Below the pieces are notes generated by a model. The model did no database searches. It was not told where the DNA came from and saw only the letters and a program-made list of their open reading frames with translations. This document shows positions 4,101 through 18,679 of a DNA stretch of 64,000 bases, one piece after another. A program made the translations under genes and the position numbers. Numbering within the stretch: the first letter of the stretch is position 1; every line of letters begins with the position of its first letter. Source of the stretch: Methanocalculus chunghsingensis (GTDB lineage: Archaea > Halobacteriota > Methanomicrobia > Methanomicrobiales > Methanocorpusculaceae); NCBI RefSeq assembly GCF_018132105.1, contig NZ_JWHL01000004.1, positions 62,001 through 126,000 of the forward strand. The letters run 5' to 3'.

Positions 4101-7100
4101 TCAGAGTGCCGGGATCTTCCCGACATAGAAGTACGCGATCCTGGCTGCGTCACCGGAATCGACTTCTCCATTATTGTTTAGGTCGGCCTCCGGATCATCC
4201 GGTGTGAGCTCCGCTGCCATCCATGCAACCTTAGCGACATCTCCGATATCGATCCAGCCATTTCTGTTGAAGTCGCCACGGAGGTGAATCGTCAGCAGTC
4301 CCCCGTTCATCCTGCCAAAGGCTATATCATGGGCACCCCTGCTCCATTGGGCATCATTGATTGTAATCTGGCTCTCCCCGGTCTGTTGTTTCGCCCGGAT
4401 GGTGATATCGAGAACCCTCAGCGGTTCTGCACCCGCAGTGTAGGTGGCGTTGTTCCGTCTCATCTCCACCTGAACTGCTCCGGTCTGGTTGTTGATCTGG
4501 TAGGTGAGATCCGTTCCTTCGGCGACCGATTCATTCACCGTAACGCTGGTGATACTCGCAAAAGCAGGATGAATGGTGGTCGTCCACCGAATCTGCCCGG
4601 CATTTGTGATATTGGTGACCGATACCGGGATTGTTCCGTTCATCCCTGTTGCAATATCGAGGGATCCTGCCCCGATGATCATATCCGAGGCAGGATGGAG
4701 GACGGTGATATAATCCATCCAGATCTCGGTCGATCCCCCTGCCTCATTATCTACGCTCAGGCGAACCGTGTACGACCCCGGCCCGGTATAGGTATGCACC
4801 GGATGCTGCTCTGTGCTGTTTCCACCATCCCCGAAGCTCCATGCCCAGGAGTCGGGGGCCCCGGTCGAGAGATCGGTGAAGGCGACCGTGAGCGGAGCGT
4901 ACCCGATGGTGCTGTTTGCGGTGAAGTCGGCCTCAGGGGGCAGGATAACATCGCTGACACTGATATACCCGCTCCGTCTGAGGGTGTCACTACCGGCGGC
5001 ATTGTACACCTGGAGTGTCACCTGATACTCCCCTTCACGGGTGTAGGTATGGACGGGGTTCTCGTCGGTTGATCCGGCTGTCTCCAGGTGCCAGATATCA
5101 TTCTGATACACAAAGTCGGCGTTTCCACCCATCAGGACGACCGTTCCGTCAGGGAGCACCACGGTTTTGTGCCCCTGCCGTTCCTCCCATTCTGCATCGG
5201 CCGATAGAAGAGACCAGGTTGCGCCACCATCGGCAGACCGCCAGGTGTCATTCAGGGCATACCCCTCTGGCAGATCATTATGCCATCCACCCGTCAGGAT
5301 GATGCCTGCATCCGGGAGGAGAACGGTTGCATGCCCTTCCCGGCTCTCCCATCCGGCATCTGCCGTCACCAGTGTCCATGAGGTGCCGTTATCGGCCGTC
5401 CTCCAGACATCGGCTGAGCCGGTCTGGCCTGTACGTCCACCGATGATAAGAAGGCTTCCGTCAGGGAGGGCGAGGCTGCTGTGGCCGTATCGTGCGGTCC
5501 ATCCGGCATCTGCCGTCATTCTTGTCCATGAGGTGCCGTCATCGGTGGACCGCCAAGTGTCATTTAATCTGGTGATGAAGTTGAAACCACCCGTCAGGAC
5601 GATGCTCCCGTCAGGAAGTACAGCGGTGTCATGGCCAAACCGTGCCGACCAGCCGGCAGCCTGGGTCAGCCGGGTCCATGTGGCACCTTTGTCAGTTGAC
5701 TGCCAGACATCGTTCCTGACACCCCCTGTATCATAGCCGCCCATCACGACAATACTGTCGTCCGGGAGGGCAACGGCGGTATGGTACTGGCGACCGCTCC
5801 ATCCGGCTGTGCCGGTCATCTGCGTCCAGTTCAAACCGCCGTCAGTAGATCGCCAGACATCCCTTTTATTCTGGGAATTGCTGTCAATACCGCCCATGAC
5901 GACGATGCTTCCATCCGAGAGGGTGACTGCAGCATGGCCTGTTCGTCCTGACCAGATCTCCCCTGTCTCCACTTCATTCCATCCTGCCTGGAAGTTCTCA
6001 TCACCGAAGTACCAGGTATGGCCTGTCGGCTCGCCGGTCGACTGATCGGTAAACTGTACAGAGAGGGGGGCTGTTCCCCCGGTGGTGTTAGCGGTGAAGC
6101 CGGCAACAGGCGGAACTCTTTCTCCTATGATGATTCCGGCGGGTATAACCACCGTTTCATACCCGGGCCAGAGGGCCGGGCTGGTGACCGTCAGGTTCGT
6201 GACTCCCTCGGAGAGGGCTTCGACGGTTACGGTGACGATCGTCAGGTTCGCGTTCTCTGGCGGTATGTGGGTCTGTGACCAGCAGTTGACGGAATCTGCC
6301 GGGATCAGACTATGATCGCCTGTTCCGGCTGTGATATTCATCCCGGTGATCCGTGCTTTCTCCGGTTCTGTGAGGTTGATGTCAATATCAAATGATCCAA
6401 GCCCGTCTTTGAGGTACGAGAGGATGATCGCATATTCGCCGGTCTCCCCGACCATCAGCTCTGATTGCTCCGGTGAGACGATGATCTCCACGATATCATC
6501 CGGAATGGAGATATATCCGGTCTTTATCTCGCTCTCCTGTCCCTGGCTGTTACTCACCGTCAGGTTCACGGTATAGTCGCCGGGTGCAGTGTAGGTGTGG
6601 GTCGGATGGTTGAGCCTTGAGATGGCACCATCCCCGAACTCCCAGAACCAGGCCGTCGGATGACCGGTCGACTGGTCGGTGAAGTTCACGGTAAGAGGGT
6701 TCTCTCCGGTCTGTACATCTGCTGTGAATGCCGGTTGTGGTTCGGTTGAGACGGTGGTAAATGCCTTGATGCAGACATTGGTATTTTCCATCTCGTCGGT
6801 GAGATCAGTCCACTCGGCTCCATCCGGGCTGACATAACTCTCGTTCGGCCCTGCGGTTGCATTACTGGAGTAATTCCCTACCGGAGTCTCAATAGGAATC
6901 GGGCTGGTATGCCCCGCTGTCTCGAGCCTGACAACAACAGAGAACTGCTCCCCTTCTGAGAGTTCAGCCGGGGGAATATCTATCGTATGGTATCCGGGGA
7001 TGGCGATCGTCCCGGTTGTTGTCGAGGCGGGGGCACCGGCTCCGATCGGCCCGTCACCGGGGTTGGTATAGACGGAGATCTGGTAGCTGCTATTCATCGC

Positions 7101-8192
7101 CGGTGTGTAGAAGCTGACTGCCGTGATCGTCTCATCGCCGGTTGCAGTGAAGATATTGGCAAACCAGCCGATCTCCGATTGATACCCGACATCACTGGTC
7201 CATCCAAGCGGGTCATACTGGTATACCTGATCATAGATCGGTGTATCAAGGGCGGTAAATACTGCAAAACTCCTTATGCTTGTATCATAGTAGGAGAGGT
7301 AGAAGTATCCGTCCTCCCCCCAGCTGGTACCCCAGCTGTTCTTAACGATGAAGGCGCCATCTCCGGGGGGGGTGGTCAGGAAGTTCGTCCTCGCATAGGT
7401 GTCATCCCAGCCGACGATCGCAACTGCATGGTTGCTTCCCGTCTCCTCGTTCTGATAGAACGCGGCGGTATCCGGGTTATACCCCCCGTTCCAGAAGAGG
7501 GATACCTGGACAACACCGTGATTCATCAGTGCCCACCTGACATTGTCGTTATCAAGCGGACCTGATCGGTCGGGGAGGAAGTACACGGTCTGGACACGCT
7601 TCACAGGCGGGATGTCGTCGGGAGATCCGGCTGAGAGGGCGACATAGGGATCATCGACCTCCTGTACCGGCCCCATCCAGCCGCCGAGATAGGCGGTTGA
7701 CATATACCGGTTTCCTCCTTCATTGGAGTCAAATATCCGATAGTCGATGTTTTTCATATGATTCTCTGAGAAATCCCATGCCTCGTCCGGGAGAAGGACG
7801 GATTCGAGTGAGGCATAGGTTGCAAATGCCCAGCAGTTCCCTTCATTCCCCTGATTCCTCACCGGGGATACCCTTCCCTGCTCGCGAAGATCGTAAACAG
7901 GGGTGGAATGAAGAGATGAGAGCCGGTTCTCTGCCTGGATCTGCATTCCTCTGGTATGAGAGAGATCGATCGGGGACGGGATGACGCCCGGAATGAAGCG
8001 ATCGTCAGAGGTCGGTGTATATTCTTTCCCCTGCGTCTGGTACTCAAGGAACGCCGGATTGAGGGGTGCACTGTTCAGGACGGATGTCCGGTTCTCTTCG
8101 GAATTCAGATCCCCTGCCGCTGCTCCTGTGGTGATAAGGCAGAAGAAGAGAATGAATAAGAAAAATTGTATATGTTTACGAAAATGATACAT
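4101..8192 (-). CDS. Secreted papain-family (C1A) protease with PKD, kelch-like, cohesin-like and dockerin modules
   Basis: The 1363-residue exported protein starts with a signal peptide (residues 1-27). A C1A cysteine protease domain covers about 95-315, with oxyanion Gln114, catalytic Cys120 (GNCWAFA), His255 (SNHAVAIVGWDD) and Asn285 (VKNSWG), so it should be active. Then come a lectin-like domain of the type found in archaeal papain relatives (about 325-480), a PKD (490-570), a cohesin-like domain (575-690), a PKD half followed by six kelch/Asp-box-like repeats (about 735-1045; each with a GH/YH...LPDGSIVVMGG core and WRSTDGG), the rest of that PKD, another PKD, a second cohesin-like domain and a C-terminal dockerin (DFNRNGWIDIGD, DLNNNGEVDSGD). 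It is probably a surface protease or a component of a surface complex with its neighbour; the substrate is unknown. Confidence 0.88.
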   Translation of the reverse strand: MYHFRKHIQFFLFILFFCLITTGAAAGDLNSEENRTSVLNSAPLNPAFLEYQTQGKEYTPTSDDRFIPGVIPSPIDLSHTRGMQIQAENRLSSLHSTPVYDLREQGRVSPVRNQGNEGNCWAFATYASLESVLLPDEAWDFSENHMKNIDYRIFDSNEGGNRYMSTAYLGGWMGPVQEVDDPYVALSAGSPDDIPPVKRVQTVYFLPDRSGPLDNDNVRWALMNHGVVQVSLFWNGGYNPDTAAFYQNEETGSNHAVAIVGWDDTYARTNFLTTPPGDGAFIVKNSWGTSWGEDGYFYLSYYDTSIRSFAVFTALDTPIYDQVYQYDPLGWTSDVGYQSEIGWFANIFTATGDETITAVSFYTPAMNSSYQISVYTNPGDGPIGAGAPASTTTGTIAIPGYHTIDIPPAELSEGEQFSVVVRLETAGHTSPIPIETPVGNYSSNATAGPNESYVSPDGAEWTDLTDEMENTNVCIKAFTTVSTEPQPAFTADVQTGENPLTVNFTDQSTGHPTAWFWEFGDGAISRLNHPTHTYTAPGDYTVNLTVSNSQGQESEIKTGYISIPDDIVEIIVSPEQSELMVGETGEYAIILSYLKDGLGSFDIDINLTEPEKARITGMNITAGTGDHSLIPADSVNCWSQTHIPPENANLTIVTVTVEALSEGVTNLTVTSPALWPGYETVVIPAGIIIGERVPPVAGFTANTTGGTAPLSVQFTDQSTGEPTGHTWYFGDENFQAGWNEVETGEIWSGRTGHAAVTLSDGSIVVMGGIDSNSQNKRDVWRSTDGGLNWTQMTGTAGWSGRQYHTAVALPDDSIVVMGGYDTGGVRNDVWQSTDKGATWTRLTQAAGWSARFGHDTAVLPDGSIVLTGGFNFITRLNDTWRSTDDGTSWTRMTADAGWTARYGHSSLALPDGSLLIIGGRTGQTGSADVWRTADNGTSWTLVTADAGWESREGHATVLLPDAGIILTGGWHNDLPEGYALNDTWRSADGGATWSLLSADAEWEERQGHKTVVLPDGTVVLMGGNADFVYQNDIWHLETAGSTDENPVHTYTREGEYQVTLQVYNAAGSDTLRRSGYISVSDVILPPEADFTANSTIGYAPLTVAFTDLSTGAPDSWAWSFGDGGNSTEQHPVHTYTGPGSYTVRLSVDNEAGGSTEIWMDYITVLHPASDMIIGAGSLDIATGMNGTIPVSVTNITNAGQIRWTTTIHPAFASITSVTVNESVAEGTDLTYQINNQTGAVQVEMRRNNATYTAGAEPLRVLDITIRAKQQTGESQITINDAQWSRGAHDIAFGRMNGGLLTIHLRGDFNRNGWIDIGDVAKVAWMAAELTPDDPEADLNNNGEVDSGDAARIAYFYVGKIPAL

Positions 8193-8411: not shown

Positions 8412-9338
8412 ATGACCCTCTCTGCTGCCGGTATTCTGATGGTCGCTGACCGGATCACGATTCTCCTGATCCTGATCGCGGTCGGGTATCTCGCGTTTCG
8501 TCTCTCCATCCTCGATCGCCAGGCGACCCATAAACTGTCGCTCCTCCTGCTGCATGTGACCATCCCTGCATTGATCATCGTCTCGATGCAGATCCCGGCC
8601 TCCCCGGAGCTTCTCTCAGGTGCAGTCGTCTTCTGCCTTGCAATCGGGGTCTTCTATCTCCTTGCAGCCACGGTCGCCTATATTGGGACATTACTCCTCA
8701 GGATGGAGGATCGGGAGCGGGGGGTCTTCTCGTTTGCGATCCTCTTTGGGAACGTCGGATTCATGGGTTTTCCGATTACAGAGACGCTCTTTGGTACTGC
8801 ATCGCTCTTTTATGTCGCACTCGGAAACCTGGTCTTCAACCTCCTCGTCTTCTCAGCAGGTATCGTGATGATGACCGGCAGGTACGAGTTCAATCCCCGG
8901 CTGCTGATCAATCCCGGGATTGCGGCCTCCTATATCGGCCTGACCCTCTTCCTCCTCGGTCTCCGGATACCGTCACCCCTCTTCGATGCGATGGAGCTTA
9001 CCGGCAATCTGACGACCCCGCTTGCGATGATCATCGTCGGGTCGCTCCTTGCGACATTCCCTGCAAAAGAGATGATCGGTGATCTGAAGACATATCTCGC
9101 AACCGGCCTCCGGCTCATCGTCCTGCCGGCTGCGACCTATCTCCTCCTTGCTCCGCTGATAGACGATCCCCTTGTCCTCGGGGTGATCGTCATCCTTGCA
9201 GCGATGCCGGTCGCCTCGACCACAGCTATCTTTGCCGAGATCTATGGGGGTGACGAGCGGTTTGCCTCCCGCCTTGTCTTCATCTCGATGATCTCCTCGA
9301 TCATCTCGATCCCCCTGATCGGTGCCTTCCTCATCTGA
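8412..9338 (+). CDS. AEC (auxin efflux carrier) family transporter
   Basis: A 308-residue membrane protein with about ten hydrophobic segments in two five-helix halves, the AEC/bile-acid-transporter-like arrangement. Recognisable family stretches are 'LLLHVTIPALIIVSMQ' in the first half, 'GNVGFMGFPI' in the centre and 'AAMPVASTTAIFAEIYGGD' near the end. AEC proteins export or facilitate organic anions such as malate; the substrate here is unknown. The start could also be the ATG at 8439 (MVADRITILL), since neither has a clear ribosome site. The 3' end overlaps the convergent sulfopyruvate decarboxylase gene by eight bases. The 218-bp spacer before it also carries the promoter of the divergent protease gene. 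Confidence 0.85.
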   Translation: MTLSAAGILMVADRITILLILIAVGYLAFRLSILDRQATHKLSLLLLHVTIPALIIVSMQIPASPELLSGAVVFCLAIGVFYLLAATVAYIGTLLLRMEDRERGVFSFAILFGNVGFMGFPITETLFGTASLFYVALGNLVFNLLVFSAGIVMMTGRYEFNPRLLINPGIAASYIGLTLFLLGLRIPSPLFDAMELTGNLTTPLAMIIVGSLLATFPAKEMIGDLKTYLATGLRLIVLPAATYLLLAPLIDDPLVLGVIVILAAMPVASTTAIFAEIYGGDERFASRLVFISMISSIISIPLIGAFLI

Positions 9339-10446
9339 CGGCTGCTGCCTGCATGAACCGATCCCGGATCTCAACCGGTGAGAGAGGAATATTTGGAACA
9401 TCAGCGTTCCCGGGCCTGATGATCATATGGATAAAGCGTGGGCCCGGTGTTCGATCCTGGATTGCCGCAGTGAGGTCTGCTTTTGTCTGGACCTGCCGGG
9501 TATGGGAGATACCTGCTGCCTGTGCAATCTGTGCGAGATCGGTGGTTGCATACCCCTGCGTGATCTGGTTGCCGGTTGAGCCGAACGTGCCGTTATCAAG
9601 GCAGATGATCGTCAGGTTCTGCGGCTTCATCGATGCGATGACCGGAAGAATCGCTGTTCCAAGGAGTGAGCCGTCGCCATCGATCACGACGATCTCCCTC
9701 CCTGATCTGAGTGCAAGGCCAAGGCCGATGGGTGATGCCTGGGTGTAGGAACCGAGCATATAGAAGTTTTCAGCCCTGTCCCCGGCAGCATACAGCTCTT
9801 TTGAGGGGATACCGATATTCGAGACGACAAGGGCATTACCAAGATGTGGGGATAACGCCTGGAGTGCGTCATACCGGGTCATCTGCGGGGCTTTGATCAC
9901 ACCCCCGGGAATCTGAGGGATGATCCGGCTTCGGTCCGGGAAAATCGGAGAAGGGCAGGTGCCCCCTGCGAAGCATGCCGGCGAGACGAGGGCGACCGTC
10001 GGCCTCCCCTCTGCATATGCCAGTTTGATCATCTCCCGGATGGCATTGAGATCCCTCTTCTCCATTATGGTTGCATACGGGATCCCGGCTCCCTTCAGTA
10101 TCTCCGGAAGCCGGGAGTTGAATGGAACCTGTGCCGGGATTGCTTCATTATATACTCCCCGCCAGCTTGCGATGATCGGGAGTGGGAGGCCAAATGTTCC
10201 GTGGAGCGAGAGGAGGGCATTGAGCATATTGCCAAGCCCCGAACTCTGGATCACCATCGCCGGCCTCCCTCCGGCAAGAGAGACGCCGGCGGAGACCCCG
10301 ACCCCGTCCTCCTCACGAAGGAGGGGGATATGTGAAAACTCTTCGGTGATACGTGCACAGAGGAGGCTGGCACGGTCACAGGGGAGGTGGGGGATGGTAT
10401 CGATCCCCTCCTCCCTGAAAATGTTGAGGATCGCCTCTTCAAGCAT
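9331..10446 (-). CDS. comDE: Sulfopyruvate decarboxylase, fused alpha and beta subunits
   Basis: A thiamine-diphosphate enzyme converting sulfopyruvate to sulfoacetaldehyde in coenzyme M biosynthesis. The 371 residues join the two subunits found separately in Methanocaldococcus: the N-terminal half (1-165) holds the pyrimidine-binding domain with the conserved Glu of 'LREEDGVGVSAG' and the 'QSSGLGNMLNAL' stretch; the C-terminal half (about 185-371) holds the ThDP-binding motif GDGSLLGTAILPVIA...CLDNGTFGSTG (GDG...N). It is the last gene of a six-gene overlapping operon; its start overlaps the cysteate synthase stop by eight bases, consistent with consecutive enzymes of one pathway. Confidence 0.93.
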   Translation of the reverse strand: MLEEAILNIFREEGIDTIPHLPCDRASLLCARITEEFSHIPLLREEDGVGVSAGVSLAGGRPAMVIQSSGLGNMLNALLSLHGTFGLPLPIIASWRGVYNEAIPAQVPFNSRLPEILKGAGIPYATIMEKRDLNAIREMIKLAYAEGRPTVALVSPACFAGGTCPSPIFPDRSRIIPQIPGGVIKAPQMTRYDALQALSPHLGNALVVSNIGIPSKELYAAGDRAENFYMLGSYTQASPIGLGLALRSGREIVVIDGDGSLLGTAILPVIASMKPQNLTIICLDNGTFGSTGNQITQGYATTDLAQIAQAAGISHTRQVQTKADLTAAIQDRTPGPRFIHMIIRPGNADVPNIPLSPVEIRDRFMQAAAVR

Positions 10447-11680
10447 GGTTCTTCTCCGTGATGCAGACCGGGAGCTCTGCCGGCCTGATGATCTCTTCCG
10501 GCTTTACCGGGTATCGTTCAGAAACTGATCGGTACCCGCCGCCGGTAATATTGAGGAGGATACAGTCATCCTCAGCAACTGCACCGCTTTCGACGGCTCT
10601 GAGGAGTGCGGCGCAGGCGACGGCTGCTGCCGGATCGGGATCGATCCCTTCGGTCTCGTCAAAGAGAGCGCCGGCACGGGCGGCATCCCTGTTTGTGATC
10701 CCATACATCGCCCCGCCACATGCCCGGAGGGCATCGAAGAGGCCGCCGGTGATGGCATAGGGCGGGGTCCTGTTCGTCAGGACATCGGCCTCCACCGCTG
10801 CTATCGCCTCTTCCGGATGGGGCATATCGATCGCCGGGATGATCTCCCGCCTCCCCGCCTGCCATGCCGAGACGAGCGGGATGAAGGGGAGGTTCTGGGC
10901 GAGGTGGAGGCCGGGGAGGGTCTTTCCGTATTTTCCATCCCCGATGAGCCGAAGCGATGCTTCCCATGCCGCGATAGCGCCGGTTCCGCTCCCGACTGCC
11001 TGGAAATACTGATCCGGAATCCTCCCGATGGTGGTGGCGGCATCAAGGAAGACGGTCCCCATGCCGTCCCGGCGGGCGACATTCTTTGCGCCTCCTTCCG
11101 GCCGGTACCCGGGGAGTGATGCGATCCTGTCGGCGACCGCGATCGCGTCGGCATAATCGCCCTCAACGCCGATGAGGGTGATATCCTTGGCCGGCTCCGT
11201 CGTCCAGATCCGCTCAAGCGAACGGACGGGAACGACGATGAGGACCGGATCACCGGTCTCCCTGGCGACCTCGGCGAAGGCACGGCCTGTATTTCCAGCC
11301 GATGCGAGGACGATGGTGCCGCCGCCGGTCTCCCGGTGCCGGATGAGGGTCGGCCATGCCTCCAGCTCCTTGAAGGAGCAGGTCGGAACATATGCCCCTC
11401 TCTCCGGTGCATATCCGGTAAACCCTATCCAGAGATTTGAGAGGCCGGCTTCACGGGCGAACCCTTCTGATCGGAAGGTGACGGGGCCGGATCGTGTGAA
11501 TGGGATCTCTGTAACCGGCAGCCATCCCGCATAGCGGAAGAGGCCGGGCTCATCTCTCAGAATTAGTTTTTTTTCAGGATAGATCGCCCTGAGGAGCGCT
11601 TTGTGGCCATGCGGGCAGGCAAGCTCCCCGGTATCCGGAAAGGTACTTTGGCAGACCGGGCAGCTGAGGAGATGGGTCAT
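10439..11680 (-). CDS. Cysteate synthase (threonine synthase paralogue)
   Basis: A PLP enzyme that makes L-cysteate from O-phosphoserine and sulfite, the Methanomicrobia/Methanosarcina entry to coenzyme M. The 413 residues begin with a degenerate zinc-ribbon (CPVCQSTFP...CPHGH), as in threonine synthases. The PLP lysine sits in 'TCSFKELEAWP', the phosphate-binding region is 'LASAGNTGRAFAEVA', and 'QAVGSGTGAIAAWE' is the family glycine loop. Distinction from threonine synthase rests on operon context beside sulfopyruvate decarboxylase and on the divergence of the substrate region. The start overlaps the Mmp16 stop by four bases (ATGA). Confidence 0.88.
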   Translation of the reverse strand: MTHLLSCPVCQSTFPDTGELACPHGHKALLRAIYPEKKLILRDEPGLFRYAGWLPVTEIPFTRSGPVTFRSEGFAREAGLSNLWIGFTGYAPERGAYVPTCSFKELEAWPTLIRHRETGGGTIVLASAGNTGRAFAEVARETGDPVLIVVPVRSLERIWTTEPAKDITLIGVEGDYADAIAVADRIASLPGYRPEGGAKNVARRDGMGTVFLDAATTIGRIPDQYFQAVGSGTGAIAAWEASLRLIGDGKYGKTLPGLHLAQNLPFIPLVSAWQAGRREIIPAIDMPHPEEAIAAVEADVLTNRTPPYAITGGLFDALRACGGAMYGITNRDAARAGALFDETEGIDPDPAAAVACAALLRAVESGAVAEDDCILLNITGGGYRSVSERYPVKPEEIIRPAELPVCITEKNHA

Positions 11681-12915
11681 CTTCCCCCCTCCTTCAGGAG
11701 AAATGTTCCTTCCTGTATCCGTCCTGCAAGCCTCCGGCAGAGCCGTTCTGCCCGGGTCCTCTCTGACTGCCTGAGGGTGATCGGGATCTCTCTTTCGTTA
11801 TAGGTGAGTGATCCGAGATGGATCCGGTACACCCCGGCCTCGCATGCCGACTGGCATGTCCCACAGGCGAGGCAGAGACTGCGGTCGATGGTGAGATCCT
11901 CCCGGATAGCTGCTGCCGGGCAGAGGATCCGTGCATGGCAGGGGGAACAGGAGATGCAGCGATCAGGATGATGCCGGACAGCCCGGTCGGTCCCCTGCCA
12001 GACAGCAGCATAATCGGCAGATCCACGGGGTTTCCTCTCTTCTATCCCGGCGATGGGGAGTTGGATATCACCATCCCGGATCAGAAGGGCCTGCAGGGAT
12101 GCATCATCAAGGACGGGAACTGCCGCAGCGACCGAGGTGAGGCATTCCGGTCCTTCGGATGTTGTGAACCCGCCCATCATCAGGGGGTCCATCCCTTTCA
12201 TATCGGCGGAGCAGGCGAGGTTTGGGCGTTGTGGCGTTGATCGCGTCCCTTCACCGAGGATGATCCCGTCGGCGCCATTGAGGAGGATAGGGGTTCCGGG
12301 ACCGAGGAATCTGAGGGAGGGATCATTCTCGACCGGATTCACCTCTCCGCATCCCGAGACCGAGATCTCCCTGCAGGGGCCATGAAGGCCGGTCACCGAG
12401 AAGATCGTCGGGGTGACTCCTGCTTCTTCTGCAAGAAACGCGGTATAGTTACGAAATGCTGATCGTGTGGTATGGAGCCTCGCCGCCGGGCAGTCATCAA
12501 GGGTGATGGTGGCCTCATGGGTCTGCCCGTCCGCAACCGCCTCACACAGGATCTCCCTGCCTGCGGCAAGATCCGCAAAGAGGTGGCCTCCCCCATACCG
12601 GCCGTCCCGGTGGGCAGTACCGTAGACGATACAGTCGATGAGGCCGAGCCGTTCGTTGGGGCAGGGGCCCGGAAAGGCCGGGACTCCGTTGAGATTACAT
12701 GATTCGGCACGCCTGAAGGTGCCGGGTGGGGCAACCGGGATCGAGAGGACCGCATAGGTCCCTGACATCACCCCGAATGTTGCGCAGGTGACGATATCGA
12801 GATCGTCTGCCGTAAACTCTTCCCCGTCCCGCAGGCGCCTCTTGAACTCATCTGCCGGGATGACAACAGCAGTGCCGTCCCGTATCTTCTGGTTGATCTC
12901 TCCCGGAGTCTTCAC
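11677..12915 (-). CDS. Methanogenesis marker 16 metalloprotein (DUF39 plus 4Fe-4S domain)
   Basis: A protein restricted largely to methanogens. The first ~330 residues match the DUF39 family, whose relatives act in sulfur transfer to aspartate semialdehyde during homocysteine synthesis; family cysteines are visible (VTCATFGVMSG, SCNLNGV, ...CPNERLGLIDC). The C-terminal ~80 residues form a two-cluster ferredoxin domain (CISCSPCHARILCP and CLACGTCQSACE). The precise reaction is not established. It lies between the coenzyme M enzymes and three metal-handling genes, overlapping its neighbours by four bases on each side, so a role in sulfur or metallocofactor delivery to that pathway is a reasonable inference. 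Confidence 0.88.
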   Translation of the reverse strand: MKTPGEINQKIRDGTAVVIPADEFKRRLRDGEEFTADDLDIVTCATFGVMSGTYAVLSIPVAPPGTFRRAESCNLNGVPAFPGPCPNERLGLIDCIVYGTAHRDGRYGGGHLFADLAAGREILCEAVADGQTHEATITLDDCPAARLHTTRSAFRNYTAFLAEEAGVTPTIFSVTGLHGPCREISVSGCGEVNPVENDPSLRFLGPGTPILLNGADGIILGEGTRSTPQRPNLACSADMKGMDPLMMGGFTTSEGPECLTSVAAAVPVLDDASLQALLIRDGDIQLPIAGIEERKPRGSADYAAVWQGTDRAVRHHPDRCISCSPCHARILCPAAAIREDLTIDRSLCLACGTCQSACEAGVYRIHLGSLTYNEREIPITLRQSERTRAERLCRRLAGRIQEGTFLLKEGGR

Positions 12916-13523
12916 AGGCCGATCCCCTCCACCCTGACATGCAGTCCGTCCTTCTCCATGATAACCATATTCACGACACCGGTATGGGAGAGGCCCATCA
13001 TACAGAAGCCGGGGAGGAAACGCTGTCTTTTGCCGAATGCAGGTTCACGCCTGACCGTCTCTGCGATCCCCTCGAAGGCATGGACATGATATGCCCGGAT
13101 ATCCTTCACGTCCTCACTCCGTGCTTCAAGAGGGGTTGTTACATGGCAGGAGATGATCCCGCTCACCGGATCAGCGGCGGTTACCCTGAGGGCATGGGTG
13201 ATCGGGCAGCCTGCACCCGCAGGCCTTCCGATGACGAGATCCCCCCTCTGTATCTCCCAGCGTTCAACGAGATCCGGGCGGAAGGGGACGACATCCTTCC
13301 GGGTCGATGGCTCACCCGGAAAGGGGTGGAGGACGAAGTCATACTCGATCCCGAGAAGATCAACCCCTGAATATCCGGATGATACCTGTTGCTTCTCTTC
13401 ACCATAGAACGGGCAGTCGGTCTGTCTCTTTGCACCTGCGGCAAGGAGAGCAGAGAACGCCATACAGGTCTTCGCCCCGCAGAGGCCGCAGTCCTTGCCG
13501 GGTGGCTTCCATGCCATGGTCAC
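12912..13523 (-). CDS. 4Fe-4S protein of the Mmp16 operon, function unknown
   Basis: The 203 residues start with a cysteine motif (KDCGLCGAKTCMAFSALLAAG followed by CPF) of the kind found at the N-terminus of corrinoid iron-sulfur proteins (FeS family). That motif binds a 4Fe-4S cluster. The remaining ~150 residues resemble no enzyme I can name, but contain 'RKDVVPFRPDLVERWEIQRGDLVIGRPAGAGCP' and 'LPGFCMMGLSHTGVVNM', which look like a conserved fold. The start overlaps the GTPase stop by four bases. With its neighbours it may form a cofactor-loading or reductive-activation module. Confidence 0.75.
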   Translation of the reverse strand: MTMAWKPPGKDCGLCGAKTCMAFSALLAAGAKRQTDCPFYGEEKQQVSSGYSGVDLLGIEYDFVLHPFPGEPSTRKDVVPFRPDLVERWEIQRGDLVIGRPAGAGCPITHALRVTAADPVSGIISCHVTTPLEARSEDVKDIRAYHVHAFEGIAETVRREPAFGKRQRFLPGFCMMGLSHTGVVNMVIMEKDGLHVRVEGIGL

Positions 13524-14224
13524 TCCCCCCGGAAGAGGTTCTCTACATCATCCAGTCGGCGGATCACACCGAAGTGATGGTTCCACCCGATCTCTTTCTT
13601 CCCGATACAGACGGTGCAGACACCAAGCGGCGGGTTGCCCCGGAGGGTGATTGCAGACTCCTCCACAATCTCCTCCAGCCCCTCGATCATCTGCATCAGG
13701 TACCGCATCCCGGTGCCGACGATGGCATTCGTCTCGATGATCTCAACGTCGGGTGCGACATCCCTGATCCCCTCCCTGAAGACCTCCTTCTCGGCCTGGG
13801 AGACGAGGTCCACCCTGGTGACGACGGCGATATCTGCAAGCGCGATCATCGGCGCCATCTTATAGGGGGAATGCGTCCCCGAGATGGCTGAGATGACCGC
13901 AATCCCAAGTGACTGTGTTGTATAGGGGGTGCACCGGAGGCAGAGACCTGCCGACTCGATGATCAGGTACTCTGCCCCCTCCTCTTCCGCCCATCCGAGG
14001 GCATCGGCGGTGACCATGATCCCTGCATGATCAGGGCAGAGATCCCCGGAGATGAGCTTCTTTGCCGGTATTCCAAATTCAGCGGCGATCTCTTCATCCT
14101 CAGTTGCATAGATGACATCGATCTTAAGGTACGCTGCTGATCGCTTTGGGAGGTTCCGAAGGATCTGCCTGATCACCGCGGTCTTCCCGGCAGAGGGGGG
14201 GCCGGCAACGATGATGAGCTTCAT
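13520..14224 (-). CDS. HypB/CobW-like P-loop GTPase of the Mmp16 operon
   Basis: The 234-residue SIMIBI-class P-loop protein has Walker A 'GPPSAGKTA' at residues 8-16, and a 'VTRVDLVS' segment in place of the NKxD guanine motif. Two CxxC pairs are visible (CLRCTPYTTQSLG in the middle, GVCTVCIGKKEIGWNHH near the end), the sort of soft-metal ligands found in nickel chaperones such as HypB. It likely uses nucleotide hydrolysis to load a metal or cluster. Four-base ATGA overlaps on both sides link it to the ABC ATPase and the Fe-S protein. The client is unknown. Confidence 0.78.
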   Translation of the reverse strand: MKLIIVAGPPSAGKTAVIRQILRNLPKRSAAYLKIDVIYATEDEEIAAEFGIPAKKLISGDLCPDHAGIMVTADALGWAEEEGAEYLIIESAGLCLRCTPYTTQSLGIAVISAISGTHSPYKMAPMIALADIAVVTRVDLVSQAEKEVFREGIRDVAPDVEIIETNAIVGTGMRYLMQMIEGLEEIVEESAITLRGNPPLGVCTVCIGKKEIGWNHHFGVIRRLDDVENLFRGE

Positions 14225-14988
14225 ATGGCGGCGACCTGTTCGCTGAGTATCTCTCCGGACCGCAGCCGTTCCCGGAGGGAGGAGAGATAGTTGTCCATCT
14301 CGGTGACCTGCCTGAGGATGGATGCCTCAGCCCCGTCAGGTTCAAGGACCGCACGGACCGAGCCGTTCCCCATCACGATCCGCCGGTCCGAGAGGAGTGA
14401 GACGAGGGGATCATGGGTGACGAAGATGACGGTTGTTCCCGACTCCTTGAGGCAGGTGATGACCCGGTCACGGAAGATTCCGGCGTTTTCGATCTCATCA
14501 AGGAGGATGATCGGGGCATGCGAGATGACGACGGCGTCGGCGATGAGAAGGGATCTCGTCTGGCCGCCGGAGAGGGAGGAGATGCGTGTGCCGGATCGGA
14601 TCGGTTCGCCGGTGAACTGGTTGGCGAGGTTGATCGTCTCTGCAATGCGATCTCCCTCCTCTATCTTCCGGGCACGGAGATGCATCGAGAGGAACTCCTG
14701 CACCGTCAGGTCGGCGAGGCATTTGGTCGTCTGGGTGATGAGGGCGACCGGTTTGCAGGAGGGATCGCGGACGAACCGCTCCGGTGGCGGGGCACCATCG
14801 ACAAGGATCTGTCGTCCGGTGACGGTATCGCCCTGGGCAAAGACCTCAATATCGTTGATGAAGGCACTCTTCCCGGAACCTGTCGGACCGACGATGGCGA
14901 TGGTGTCGCCTGGCCGGAGGTGGAGGGCCTCAAACGGTTCGGGATCACCGTTTCGATCATGGCCCGGAAGGATGGTGATCGTGTACAT
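14221..14988 (-). CDS. Stand-alone ABC ATPase, first gene of the coenzyme M/Mmp16 operon
   Basis: A soluble ABC-type ATPase of about 255 residues with Walker A (GPTGSGKSA), Q-loop (ITQTTK), signature (SSLSGGQTRSLLIA), Walker B (PIILLDEIEN) and switch histidine (FVTHDPL). No permease is encoded nearby, so transport is unlikely; the methyl-coenzyme M reductase activation factor AtwA is a precedent for a soluble ABC protein in methanogens, though that one has two ATPase domains. Start preferred at 14988 (MYTITILPGH); an in-frame ATG at 15030 is possible, but an AT-rich TATA-like stretch at 15037-15048 overlaps its upstream region. Confidence 0.78.
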   Translation of the reverse strand: MYTITILPGHDRNGDPEPFEALHLRPGDTIAIVGPTGSGKSAFINDIEVFAQGDTVTGRQILVDGAPPPERFVRDPSCKPVALITQTTKCLADLTVQEFLSMHLRARKIEEGDRIAETINLANQFTGEPIRSGTRISSLSGGQTRSLLIADAVVISHAPIILLDEIENAGIFRDRVITCLKESGTTVIFVTHDPLVSLLSDRRIVMGNGSVRAVLEPDGAEASILRQVTEMDNYLSSLRERLRSGEILSEQVAAI

Positions 14989-15123: not shown

Positions 15124-16500
15124 TTAAGGAACAACTCCCATAAGTATTGATTCGATATCCTCCATATCATATACACGATACCCCTCCTCCCGGAGCACCT
15201 CTTTCCCGTCAATTTTTCCACACACAAGAGAGTACTGCTCAATGGGATACTGATCATGCCGAACATTCAGGGACTTCTTCTCCAGCCGCTTCAGGATGCC
15301 ACGCCCCCTCTTTTCGGTTATATGTCCCCATTTACATTCCCCGAAGATAATTTCCCTGTGCTGATCATTTGTAGCAATGAGATCGATCTCTTCTCCACGA
15401 TACCACCATCGTCCTATGACATAGTCAGGAAGAATGATCGGAAAAAATTCTTTTCGGATATATACTTCAAACTGTTTTCCAAAATATGGATCTCTTGACT
15501 CTCTTCCTGCTGAGGGTCTGTCCATCTCGATCGCCTGTTTCTCGGGAAATACATGAGAATACCAGAAATCGAAAATGGGATCCTGTATCCTGTATAATCC
15601 CTGGGTTTTGCTCCCGAAAATTGGAAGTTCCTTCTCAATGATTCCCAATCGGATCATCGCTTCCATATATGGATACAGGTGACGTGGATCGACTCCGCAA
15701 AACTGACTAATAGCTCCTGCAGCTGTTTTTCCAACTGCAATTGCATGAAGGATGGATTGATAGAGCTTCAGTTCCCGAAACTCCTGGGAGAGAAGAAAAT
15801 ATGGCTCACGATAAAAATATCCATATTTATTAAAGAACTCTCTCTGGACGAATGTTTCATACTCCTCATACTCCCCGGCTTTGAGAAGGTACTCAGGGAT
15901 TCCCCCTATGGTCAGATAGGTCTTCAAAGAATCCTTAAAATTATATGATGGAAGGAGACTCTTTGCATCAGTGAAATGTAATGGTCCAAGGAGAATATCA
16001 CGTGTTCTTCTTCCATAGAGGGGGGAGGTATAGGACAGGGCACTGTCGGTCATCAACCCGAGCATCGATCCCGAGAGGATGATGCACCAGTTTGAATCTG
16101 TCAGTGCCATATCCCAGGATTTCTGGAGTGCAGAGAGTATTGACGGGTCATTTTTTATCAGGTAGGTGAATTCGTCGATGATAAGGTATCGGCGTTCTGT
16201 TGGTGGATGTTGCCCAAGATACATAAAGAGCTGATCCCAGCTCGTCATCTCAAGTGAGGCGAGGAGTTGATCACCGAAGAACTGGGAGATTGCATGCTGG
16301 AGTTTTCGTATCTGAATTGCTTTTGCGGTATCTTCTGCAAAATAGATGATCCCCTCTTTATTTTGGGTGAACTCTGTCATGAGGCGGGTTTTGCCGATCC
16401 TTCTCCGTCCATAAAGGATGATAAGCCTCCCTCCGTCTCTTTTCCACTCCTCCTCAAGGAGTGCAATCTCGGTGGTTCTATCGACAAAACTCCTAATCAT
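15124..16500 (-). CDS. Archaeal AAA ATPase with DUF234-type C-terminal domain
   Basis: The 458-residue protein belongs to the expanded archaeal family with an N-terminal AAA/STAND-like domain and a C-terminal DUF234 domain. Walker A is 'YGRRRIGKTRL', Walker B 'RYLIIDEFTYL', and the C-terminal part carries a PD-(D/E)xK-like core ('GEEIDLIA...IIFGECKWG'). Members are abundant in archaeal genomes and linked to mobile DNA, but their job is unknown. The gene is lower in GC than its neighbours and stands alone behind a dense set of GATTA/TAATC palindromes, suggesting recent arrival and tight self-control. Confidence 0.85.
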   Translation of the reverse strand: MIRSFVDRTTEIALLEEEWKRDGGRLIILYGRRRIGKTRLMTEFTQNKEGIIYFAEDTAKAIQIRKLQHAISQFFGDQLLASLEMTSWDQLFMYLGQHPPTERRYLIIDEFTYLIKNDPSILSALQKSWDMALTDSNWCIILSGSMLGLMTDSALSYTSPLYGRRTRDILLGPLHFTDAKSLLPSYNFKDSLKTYLTIGGIPEYLLKAGEYEEYETFVQREFFNKYGYFYREPYFLLSQEFRELKLYQSILHAIAVGKTAAGAISQFCGVDPRHLYPYMEAMIRLGIIEKELPIFGSKTQGLYRIQDPIFDFWYSHVFPEKQAIEMDRPSAGRESRDPYFGKQFEVYIRKEFFPIILPDYVIGRWWYRGEEIDLIATNDQHREIIFGECKWGHITEKRGRGILKRLEKKSLNVRHDQYPIEQYSLVCGKIDGKEVLREEGYRVYDMEDIESILMGVVP

Positions 16501-16620
16501 AATTAGTACTAATCAGGATTAGTATTAAGATCTCCCCCTCTGGATGAAAAGACGATAATGCACTCTCGATGGAGCGCTTAATGTAAACCCTAATCCAGAT
16601 TAGTACTAATCCTGATTAGG
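16491..16620 (-). promoter_or_regulatory. Array of ATTAGTACTAAT palindromes upstream of the DUF234 ATPase
   Basis: The perfect 12-bp palindrome ATTAGTACTAAT occurs at 16502-16513, touching the ATPase start codon, and again at 16599-16610. Each copy is flanked by extra TAATC or GATTA half-sites, so the second block (16590-16619) is itself almost a 30-bp palindrome. It runs into the ruvB stop codon. The layout looks like paired operators controlling the ATPase gene. Confidence 0.6.
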
Positions 16621-17611
16621 ACCGGCGCCCTGCAAGAAGATGTTCCCTCGCCGCATCTGTCGTCTCCCTCCCTTTCGGGGTTCGCTTCAGAAAGCCGATC
16701 CTGATGAGATAGGGCTCATAGACCTCCTCGATGGTCCGGACCTCCTCCCCGATCGAGATGGCGATGGTACGGACGCCGACCGGTCCGCCAGAGAAGTCCT
16801 CGGCGACGACGGTGAGGATCCGGCGATCGAGATCGTCGAGGCCGAGGGGATCGATCCCGAGGATGCTGAGGGCAGCATCTGCCGACCCCTGTGTGATGGT
16901 GCCGTCCCCCCGGACCATCGCATAATCGCGGACACGACGGAGGAGTCGGTTTGCGATTCGCGGTGTTCCCCGGCTCCGTTGTGCGATCTCCCATGCACCC
17001 TCCTCGGTGATGGAGATCTTGAGGATTGATGCCGACCGCTTCACGATACTGAGGAGTTCATCGACCTCGTAGAGGTTCAGCCGGAAGATCATCCCGAACC
17101 GGTCACGGAGAGGGGAGCCGAGGAGGCCGACCCGTGTCGTCGCTCCAACGAGGGTGAACCTATCGAGGGGGAGCTGGATCGCCTTTGCCCCCGGCCCCTC
17201 CCCGATCATCACGTCGATCATATAATCCTCCATCGCCGGGTAGAGGATCTCCTCAACGACCGGATTGAGCCGGTGAATCTCGTCGATGAAGAGGAGATCG
17301 CCATGGGTGAGCGCTGTCAGCTGGGCGGCCAGATCGCCGGGCTTGTCGATGACCGGCCCGGTGGTGCTCCGGATTGCAGCCCCCATCTCCCGTGCGATGA
17401 TCTGGGCGAGGGTCGTCTTCCCAAGGCCGGGCGGCCCTGAGAAGAGGATATGATCGAGGGTCTCGCCACGGAGCTTGGCGGCCTCGATTGCGATCCGGAG
17501 CGCCTCTTTGAGCTGTGGCTGGCCGACGAACTCATCGAGATCCCCCGGTCTGATTGCGGGATCGTCGATATCATCCGTCATCCGCACTGGTGCTGTTATC
17601 CGGTCGGTCAT
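16616..17611 (-). CDS. ruvB: Holliday junction branch migration ATPase RuvB
   Basis: The hexameric AAA+ motor that drives branch migration of Holliday junctions with RuvA. The 331 residues carry Walker A ([11 protein letters not shown]), Walker B ([10 protein letters not shown]), sensor 1 (LVGATTR) and the arginine-finger region (LRDRFG), then the C-terminal winged helix ('[16 protein letters not shown]...[18 protein letters not shown]'). Length and motifs are normal. Its start overlaps the ruvA stop by four bases. RuvABC is bacterial in general but is present in Methanomicrobiales. Confidence 0.96.
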
Positions 17612-18201
17612 TCTGATCGCTCCCTGAGGCGGGCGAGTGCCGCTTTAATAATTACCTGGACAGACTGGCTCTCCTCCGATTCGGTGACGCTCCGGACCGC
17701 CTCATCGGCCTCCCGTTCAGAGAAGCCGAGGGTGATAAGGGCAGAGATGGCATCCGATGCAGGCTGTGGAGATGCTACCTTTCTGAGTGTGCCTGCCCGT
17801 TTCTTCATCGTCTCCTTCAGCTCAAGGATGAGACGCTTTGCACTCTTTGGCCCGATCCCTGAAATCCGGGTCAGCATCTTCTCATCCTCGCTGATGATCG
17901 CCATCGCAAACTGGTCAAGTGATATCTGGGAGAGGATGTTTAATGCTATCTGCGGCCCGATCCCGGAGACGTTGATGAGGATCAGAAAGAGATCCCTCTC
18001 CCCTGGATGGAGGAATCCATAGAGTGAGACGGCATCTTCCCGGACGACGAGATGGGTATGAAGCTTCACCGGATTACTCATCTCCCGGATCTCCCGGAGA
18101 TCCGGCTGGCTGACCCTGATGAGGTATCCGATTCCACCGACATCGATGACGACGGATCCTTCCCCGATGGAGGCGACTGAGCCGCTGATGTGTGCAAACA
18201 T
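17608..18201 (-). CDS. ruvA: Holliday junction DNA helicase subunit RuvA
   Basis: The tetrameric junction-binding partner of RuvB. Start set at ATG 18201 ([15 protein letters not shown]), giving 197 residues, the normal length; it follows a GGTGA ribosome site, whereas the longer frame adds an unrelated leader. An N-terminal OB domain (1-64) is followed by two helix-hairpin-helix motifs ([32 protein letters not shown]) and the C-terminal three-helix RuvB-binding domain ([16 protein letters not shown]). It lies four bases after ruvC. Confidence 0.95.
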
Positions 18202-18205
18202 GGAT

Positions 18206-18679
18206 TCACCGGAGGGTATTGGTATGGCAGAGGGCGATCGCAAGGCCGTCGGCGGCATCATCCGGGCGTGGGATCTCGTCAAGCTTCAGAAGGCGCCGGA
18301 CCATATCCTGCACCTGCTCCTTCTTTGCCCGGCCCGACCCCGAGACCGCCAGCTTGATCTGGTTTGGGGTATATTCGATGACCGGAATCCCCCGCTCCTC
18401 AATGGCAAGGAGGATCACCCCCCTCACCTCGGCGACGCGAATGGCTGATGTAACGTTCTTTGTGAAGAAGAGCTCTTCAACGGCGACTTCATCGGGGGCA
18501 TGCTCTGCAAGCAGGGCCGAGATACGGCGATAGATCTCATGGAGACGGTGGCTCGTCGTCTGGTTGGTCCCGGAGGTCTCAATACAGCCGTTTTCAATAT
18601 GCCGTATCGTCCGGGTCCCCTTCTCGATGACGCCGTATCCCACCCGGGCGATGCCGGGATCTATCCCGATGATGATCAT
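18206..18679 (-). CDS. ruvC: Crossover junction endodeoxyribonuclease RuvC
   Basis: The Holliday junction resolvase, an RNase H-fold nuclease. The 157 residues keep the catalytic acidic positions: Asp7 (GIDPGIARVGYG), Glu68-69 (VAVEELFF) and the C-terminal Asp pair in 'PDDAADGLAIALCH'. It is first in the ruvC-ruvA-ruvB operon. Archaea normally use Hjc, so this set provides a bacterial-type resolution pathway. Confidence 0.95.
   Translation of the reverse strand: MIIIGIDPGIARVGYGVIEKGTRTIRHIENGCIETSGTNQTTSHRLHEIYRRISALLAEHAPDEVAVEELFFTKNVTSAIRVAEVRGVILLAIEERGIPVIEYTPNQIKLAVSGSGRAKKEQVQDMVRRLLKLDEIPRPDDAADGLAIALCHTNTLR

Follow-up and report, generated by a model that had tools for sequence, protein, structure and literature searches.

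The closest described counterpart of the locus analyzed here is the coenzyme M (CoM) gene cluster reported by Chadwick et al. 2025 (PMC12068725), where MMP16, whose reaction requires electrons, was established as ComF, the primary CoM synthase of Methanosarcina acetivorans. In Figure 2B of that study and its legend, an ATPase, a 'Ni2+ binding GTPase' and a COG2000 Fe-S protein are presented as often colocalized with CoM genes and of unknown role, and the parts of the paper that deal with this cluster leave the role of the three genes open. In the literature searched, COG2000 was mentioned together with coenzyme M only in that paper, from which we borrow the name COG2000, given there to the Fe-S gene of the neighbourhood. 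The window analyzed here, a 64,000-nt stretch of the Methanocalculus chunghsingensis genome (positions 62,001 to 126,000 of contig NZ_JWHL01000004.1), carries apparently the same genes in the same neighbourhood on its minus strand (9331-14988). The neighbourhood itself is therefore not new and was published in 2025. Below, the genes for the soluble ABC ATPase (abc), the HypB/UreG-fold GTPase (gtp) and the COG2000-type Fe-S protein (fes) are referred to as the trio; genomes, loci, families and genera are given by our own handles (G, L, f and g). In a survey of several hundred genomes, the trio tracks the cysteate route of CoM synthesis rather than methane production in general. Relative to what the cluster-related parts of the 2025 study describe, the new elements are the dependence of the trio on cysteate synthase (CS) rather than on MMP16 or ComA, operons that lack MMP16, and a wider GTPase-ABC module.

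Distribution of the trio

The order to which M. chunghsingensis belongs was surveyed in 150 genomes with one profile per protein. The trio was scored by its COG2000 protein, for which close paralogues are lacking in the order; absence calls in draft genomes may reflect assembly gaps. CS and the trio were found together in 82 genomes, the trio alone in six, CS alone in five and neither in 57, so that the trio is present in 82 of 87 CS genomes versus 6 of 63 genomes without a CS match. When MMP16 is also considered, all three are present in 76 genomes and none in 54, five genomes have only MMP16 and CS, six have the trio and CS without MMP16, and nine are mixed. Three of the mixed genomes (G076, G106 and G145) have the trio and MMP16 but no CS, whose absence is probably accounted for by contig ends. 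Fisher tests, which ignore kinship, gave p ~3e-28 for the association of the trio with CS and p ~1e-22 for that with MMP16. Moreover, each of the genera g2, g6, g10, g11 and g13 includes genomes with both CS and the trio and others with neither, and the recurrence of this both-or-neither pattern favours repeated joint loss of the two.

At 17 of the 20 loci retrieved from several families within the order, the same six genes recur in the same arrangement, indicating that the arrangement is more than chance. Genera g68, g60, g37 and g98 of family f8 have cs-abc-gtp-fes-comD-comE, mostly with a convergent MMP16 gene; family f22 has cs-abc-gtp-fes and encodes MMP16 elsewhere. In G157 (f14), where the trio is located away from CS, gtp and fes are separated by a class-V aminotransferase gene (L114:6283-9628). 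Outside the order, the COG2000 protein was detected in 27 of 61 CS genomes versus 1 of 12 ComA genomes. Furthermore, a full-length COG2000 match was obtained in only two of the 50 named archaea with the ComA route, a set that includes 35 Methanobacteriales; both are ANME-1-type or related metagenome-assembled genomes (MAGs), and one of them is in all likelihood identical with the MAG that accounts for the single case among the 12 ComA genomes. Most ComA-route genomes inside the same phylum also lack the trio. Given the co-occurrence with CS and the near absence from ComA genomes, the trio goes with the cysteate route and not with the ComA route, although lineage may contribute to this split, since ComA archaea belong mostly to other clades. 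In a FastTree phylogeny, the CoM-linked GTPases group in a single clade (support 1.0) that excludes those of other GTPase-ABC pairs. Overall, the link of the trio to CoM synthesis is strong. An initial annotation, made from the nucleotide sequence, had placed the extra genes with CoM biosynthesis, and their co-occurrence with CS across genomes and gene orders bears this out; homologues are not consistently separated from CoM genes in other genomes.

The trio and MMP16 are separable

Six genomes (G017, G085, G093, G097, G113 and G143) contain the trio and CS, with no MMP16 found; two of them, G017 and G085, are single-contig assemblies that are 99% and 97% complete, respectively. Five loci fetched from these six genomes have the order abc-gtp-fes-cs-comDE. 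In G037 (genus g18), trio-cs-comDE and MMP16-comDE occupy two different sites (loci L042 and L065). Conversely, G049 and G065 have MMP16-cs-comDE and no trio, and MMP16 and CS without the trio are also seen in the Methanosarcina-type genomes considered below. Since each occurs without the other, the trio is neither required by MMP16 nor dependent on it. No record on whether Methanoregula boonei requires CoM was found in the literature searched.

No CS genome of the order lacks both MMP16 and the trio, a pattern which suggested that the two might be alternative CoM synthases. We did not accept it as evidence because the trio is present in ~94% of CS genomes and the pattern in six related MMP16-less genomes is then expected by chance. 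Separately, a divergent MMP16-like protein, 37% identical and below the family cut-off, is encoded in G087 (L052:9035-10324) and G091 (G091:C50:5661-6914), two genomes without CS and without the COG2000 protein.

The operon in M. chunghsingensis

The source genome (G000; 2.13 Mb, 99.5% complete) encodes CS, ComDE and MMP16/ComF that score above the family cut-offs (Table 1), and no ComA match was found in it. The block is a type-2 (cysteate-route) CoM operon. Its six open reading frames run in the order abc > gtp > fes > mmp16 > cs > comDE, with successive overlaps of 4, 4, 4, 4 and 8 bases, in agreement with the six overlapping minus-strand genes of the initial annotation. The start of abc implied there, 14988, fits better than 15030 because same-genus relatives have no in-frame start further upstream. 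That annotation recognized two CoM enzymes and four genes with no assigned reaction; this still describes the trio, whereas MMP16 has been assigned as CoM synthase (PMC12068725).

MMP16 shares the DUF39 family with L-aspartate semialdehyde sulfurtransferase (HcyBio/COG1900a), which acts in homocysteine synthesis; that enzyme differs in its substrate, and the cysteines conserved in it do not coincide in sequence position with those of MMP16 (PMC12068725). A further DUF39 protein is encoded in the source genome (contig 12), and its score points to the homocysteine enzyme. A sequence search of the PDB with MMP16 gave matches mainly to the ferredoxin domain and no relative of the DUF39 domain.

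Table 1. Genes of the CoM operon and its surroundings in the window
Feature	Product	Position	Strand	Basis
abc	soluble ABC ATPase, 255 aa	14221..14988	-	PF00005, 55 bits; family alignment
gtp	HypB/UreG-fold GTPase, 234 aa	13520..14224	-	PF02492 (CobW/HypB/UreG G3E-type GTPase superfamily), 52.4 bits versus cut-off 20.7; alignments, PDB profile match, AlphaFold model
fes	COG2000-type Fe-S protein, 203 aa	12912..13523	-	PF04060, 38 bits; alignments; model
mmp16 (comF)	DUF39/COG1900d protein with C-terminal ferredoxin domain, coenzyme M synthase	11677..12915	-	TIGR03287, 516 bits versus cut-off 364; PF01837, 295 bits
cs	cysteate synthase, pyridoxal phosphate enzyme, phosphoserine + sulfite -> cysteate	10439..11680	-	TIGR03844, 604.1 bits versus cut-off 324.9
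comDE	fused sulfopyruvate decarboxylase, ComD and ComE in one chain, thiamine pyrophosphate enzyme	9331..10446	-	TIGR03845, 187 bits versus cut-off 148; TIGR03846, 237 bits versus cut-off 221.5
upstream gene	archaeal ATPase_2/DUF234 protein	15124..16500	-	
ruvC-ruvA-ruvB	bacterial-type Ruv proteins	16616..18679	-	RuvB: TIGR00635, 447 bits versus 299; ruvA and ruvC from reading of the translations
protease-like gene	1363-aa protein, predicted secreted papain-like protease	4101..8192	-	sequence

As for the surroundings, the gene for an ATPase_2/DUF234 protein lies directly upstream of the operon, and just upstream is a bacterial-type ruvC-ruvA-ruvB run, unusual for an archaeon. The large protein encoded elsewhere in the window, by its sequence a secreted papain-like protease, has PKD and Kelch/sialidase-like repeats and a dockerin-like end.

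Sequence and structure of the trio proteins

Structure models of the GTPase and the COG2000 protein were built from 16 sequences each. The AlphaFold model of the GTPase (predicted local distance difference test score, pLDDT, 79.5) has UreG (4hi0) and HypB (2hf8) as its nearest PDB folds (Foldseek E ~1e-10, TM 0.62-0.65). The GTPase shares with these nickel-insertion enzymes the fold and the Walker A motif, and it has putative metal-type Cys/His residues in comparable places. However, it misses the equivalog cut-offs of both HypB (TIGR00073, 56.8 versus 121.2 bits) and UreG (TIGR00101, 30.9 versus 204.2 bits), has an additional CLRC motif and a C-terminal CxxC, and is partnered by the ABC ATPase and the COG2000 protein instead of hydrogenase or urease proteins. 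Residues C63-P-D-H66, C95-L-R-C98, C203-x2-C206 and H217 are conserved across orders. A HypB-like metal site would be marked by a Cys-His pair within switch I and by a further Cys behind the ENVG/ESAG motif. In the PDB profile match, C63/H66 are aligned with C95/H96 of HypB and C98 is one residue off HypB C127; these three HypB residues we take to be metal ligands. Internal stops in some paralogous GTPases raised the possibility of selenocysteine, which was dismissed when the stop in the checked case proved to be terminal.

The COG2000 protein has an N-terminal 4Fe-4S module (C12, C15, C20 and C37) resembling that of the corrinoid/iron-sulfur protein gamma subunit (CdhE/AcsC), with 44-47% identity over 32-36 residues. 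By contrast, the COG2000 protein lacks the corrinoid-binding C-terminal domain of that subunit, and only PF04060 was found in it. Instead, its C-terminal part is a beta domain with conserved C106-P-x2-H110, C174 and H180, for which a Foldseek search with the model (pLDDT 89) returned no PDB relative. The four cluster cysteines and the C-terminal Cys and His residues are kept in COG2000 proteins of all lineages aligned, and the conservation of C106, H110, C174 and H180 suggests a second, putative metal site.

The ABC ATPase gives a single ABC_tran match and has the LSGGQ signature, and its Walker B is followed by DEIENAG in place of the usual DEPT/SALD D-loop; DEIENAG or DEVENAG is present in nearly all aligned members of the family. 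No membrane permease is encoded with abc within the conserved block, either in the window or in the 17 six-gene loci. Because of this and of the altered D-loop, we dropped the reading of abc as part of a transporter. With one ABC domain, it differs from the reductase-activation protein A2/AtwA, which has two ABC domains in one chain.

Related GTPase-ABC pairs

Genes for homologous GTPase and ABC ATPase stand side by side at other loci in archaea and Fusobacterium, for example as paralogous pairs at L067-L074, L123-L125 and L234. The neighbours of the more distant pairs are DUF364/DUF4213 heavy-metal-chelation proteins, FecCD and BtuF-like transporters, a CdhD-like protein or ZnuA/ABC-3 metal-transporter genes. 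Several pairs adjoin an SBP_bac_6 protein whose start has no evident signal peptide and which in some cases carries an N-terminal DUF1858; a pair with an SBP_bac_6-type neighbour is also found in Fusobacterium vincentii. Thus, in contrast to the trio, the partners of these pairs are metal-uptake, chelation or solute-binding-like proteins, and neither COG2000 nor CoM genes are adjacent. The pairs apparently represent an uncharacterised metal-handling module that is shared with bacteria.

A different context is seen at L057, L059, L061, L062, L066, L064 and L120, where the trio is flanked by a cytoplasmic SsuA-like protein of the sulfonate-binding family, in most cases together with an XRE regulator. 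The GTPases of these trios form a sub-clade (support 0.92) inside the CoM-linked clade, and because this sub-clade is spread over families f2, f6 and f7, the distribution suggests that the SsuA-flanked trio is a mobile island. At L058, L060 and L063, divergent trios whose COG2000 protein is longer stand on their own, beside PKD/dockerin-type surface proteins. A ThiF/MoeB-like gene occurs near some trios, probably by coincidence.

Possible function of the trio

For the CoM-linked clade, we consider it very probable that the trio is a dedicated accessory of cysteate-route CoM synthesis. In this route, CS converts phosphoserine and sulfite to cysteate, an aminotransferase encoded elsewhere produces sulfopyruvate, ComDE turns this into sulfoacetaldehyde, and MMP16/ComF replaces the aldehyde by a thiol. 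The CPDH/CLRC site of the HypB-like GTPase may bind a metal ion, which the GTPase and the soluble ABC ATPase would jointly deliver, in a GTP- and ATP-driven manner, into the conserved C/H site of the COG2000 protein. The latter, a putative redox protein with one 4Fe-4S cluster, would then carry out sulfur or redox chemistry so as to provide the route with its sulfur substrate or to keep this substrate usable. We infer the metal loading, the COG2000 protein as its client and sulfite or other sulfur as the substrate of that protein; the loading is proposed on the basis of the predicted HypB/UreG fold, the conserved candidate ligands and the metal-uptake neighbours of related GTPase-ABC pairs. 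The supply of sulfite to CS is the most attractive candidate task because the in situ source of sulfite is described as unclear, the sulfite needed for CoM being covered by a proposal only (PMC6286981). This mechanism as a whole is tentative, and we hold it possible rather than probable. In its strongest form the trio is a new intracellular machine whose ABC ATPase and HypB-like GTPase, relatives of pairs found with cytoplasmic solute-binding-protein-like proteins in archaea and bacteria, use ATP and GTP for the metallation of COG2000, an Fe-S enzyme not described before, which would in turn provide sulfite or other activated sulfur for the cysteate route; we consider this form unlikely.

Several observations weigh against this mechanism. 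The Methanosarcina-type genomes (g82/g93, with the exception of G336) and the g45 genomes hold CS and MMP16 without the trio, which is thus not obligatory, and in G064 and G125 a divergent trio is present with neither CS nor MMP16. The sulfite idea is weakened because ComA-route organisms also need sulfite and yet lack the trio. Furthermore, no biochemical or genetic data on any trio protein were found in the literature searched.

Alternatively, the trio might mature or reductively activate MMP16/ComF, with the GTPase and the ABC ATPase powering cluster insertion or the flow of low-potential electrons to the ferredoxin domain of MMP16 by way of the COG2000 protein. Indeed, fes immediately precedes mmp16 both in the window and in most relatives, the trio is beside an MMP16 copy located away from CS in G298, G336, G352 and G354, and the MMP16 reaction needs electrons (PMC12068725). 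However, the six genomes with trio-CS-ComDE have no MMP16, and in M. acetivorans, whose g82/g93 relatives other than G336 lack the trio, MMP16 serves as the primary CoM synthase (PMC12068725). Both points make this possibility doubtful. The initial annotation had envisaged a machine for metallocofactor loading or activation or for sulfur handling; metal handling remains reasonable because UreG and HypB, the nearest folds to the GTPase, are nickel chaperones, whereas activation of the DUF39/MMP16 protein alone is disfavoured by the same genomes.

Another explanation, which we regard as improbable, is that the trio senses or salvages sulfonates or CoM and thereby tunes CoM synthesis, a transporter-derived ABC ATPase and the GTPase being coupled to a cytoplasmic SsuA-like protein as an energy-driven sensor or trap. 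It would account for the divergent XRE regulator and the SsuA-family protein without evident signal peptide that flank MMP16-less operons, for the NMT1/SsuA-like neighbours at G025 and G159, and for the cytoplasmic SBP_bac_6 proteins adjoining several related GTPase-ABC pairs. Nevertheless, no such binding protein or regulator is found beside the operon in the window, and the SsuA-type neighbours go with a single GTPase sub-clade whose spread over f2, f6 and f7 suggests that one island was transferred horizontally. Given that ABC proteins take part in the activation of methyl-CoM reductase and that the GTPase fold is closest to nickel chaperones, the trio could also handle nickel or activate that reductase, and its place in the CoM operon would then reflect no more than a shared purpose, methane formation. 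We give this little credence: 54 of the 150 genomes of the order, from at least five genera, lack CS, MMP16 and the trio together and yet must activate the reductase, which they are assumed to have, abc has one ABC domain, and ComA-route Methanobacteriales have no COG2000 partner. Activation of methyl-CoM reductase, to which the initial annotation had also alluded, is therefore unlikely. Finally, the trio could share no common function with CoM synthesis and merely hitch-hike in a conserved operon, in line with its being dispensable in several CoM-making lineages; this is hardly plausible, as the trio remains associated with CoM genes in at least two different arrangements and, in several genera, is missing along with them.

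CoM is required by every methyl-CoM reductase, and the source of its sulfonate sulfur is unsettled in the literature examined. The survey yields testable claims, namely, that the trio goes with the cysteate and not the ComA route, that it is independent of MMP16, and that it is probably a metal-handling module around the COG2000 protein. Moreover, the MMP16-less Methanoregula-type genomes with trio-CS-ComDE offer natural tests of ComF replacement.

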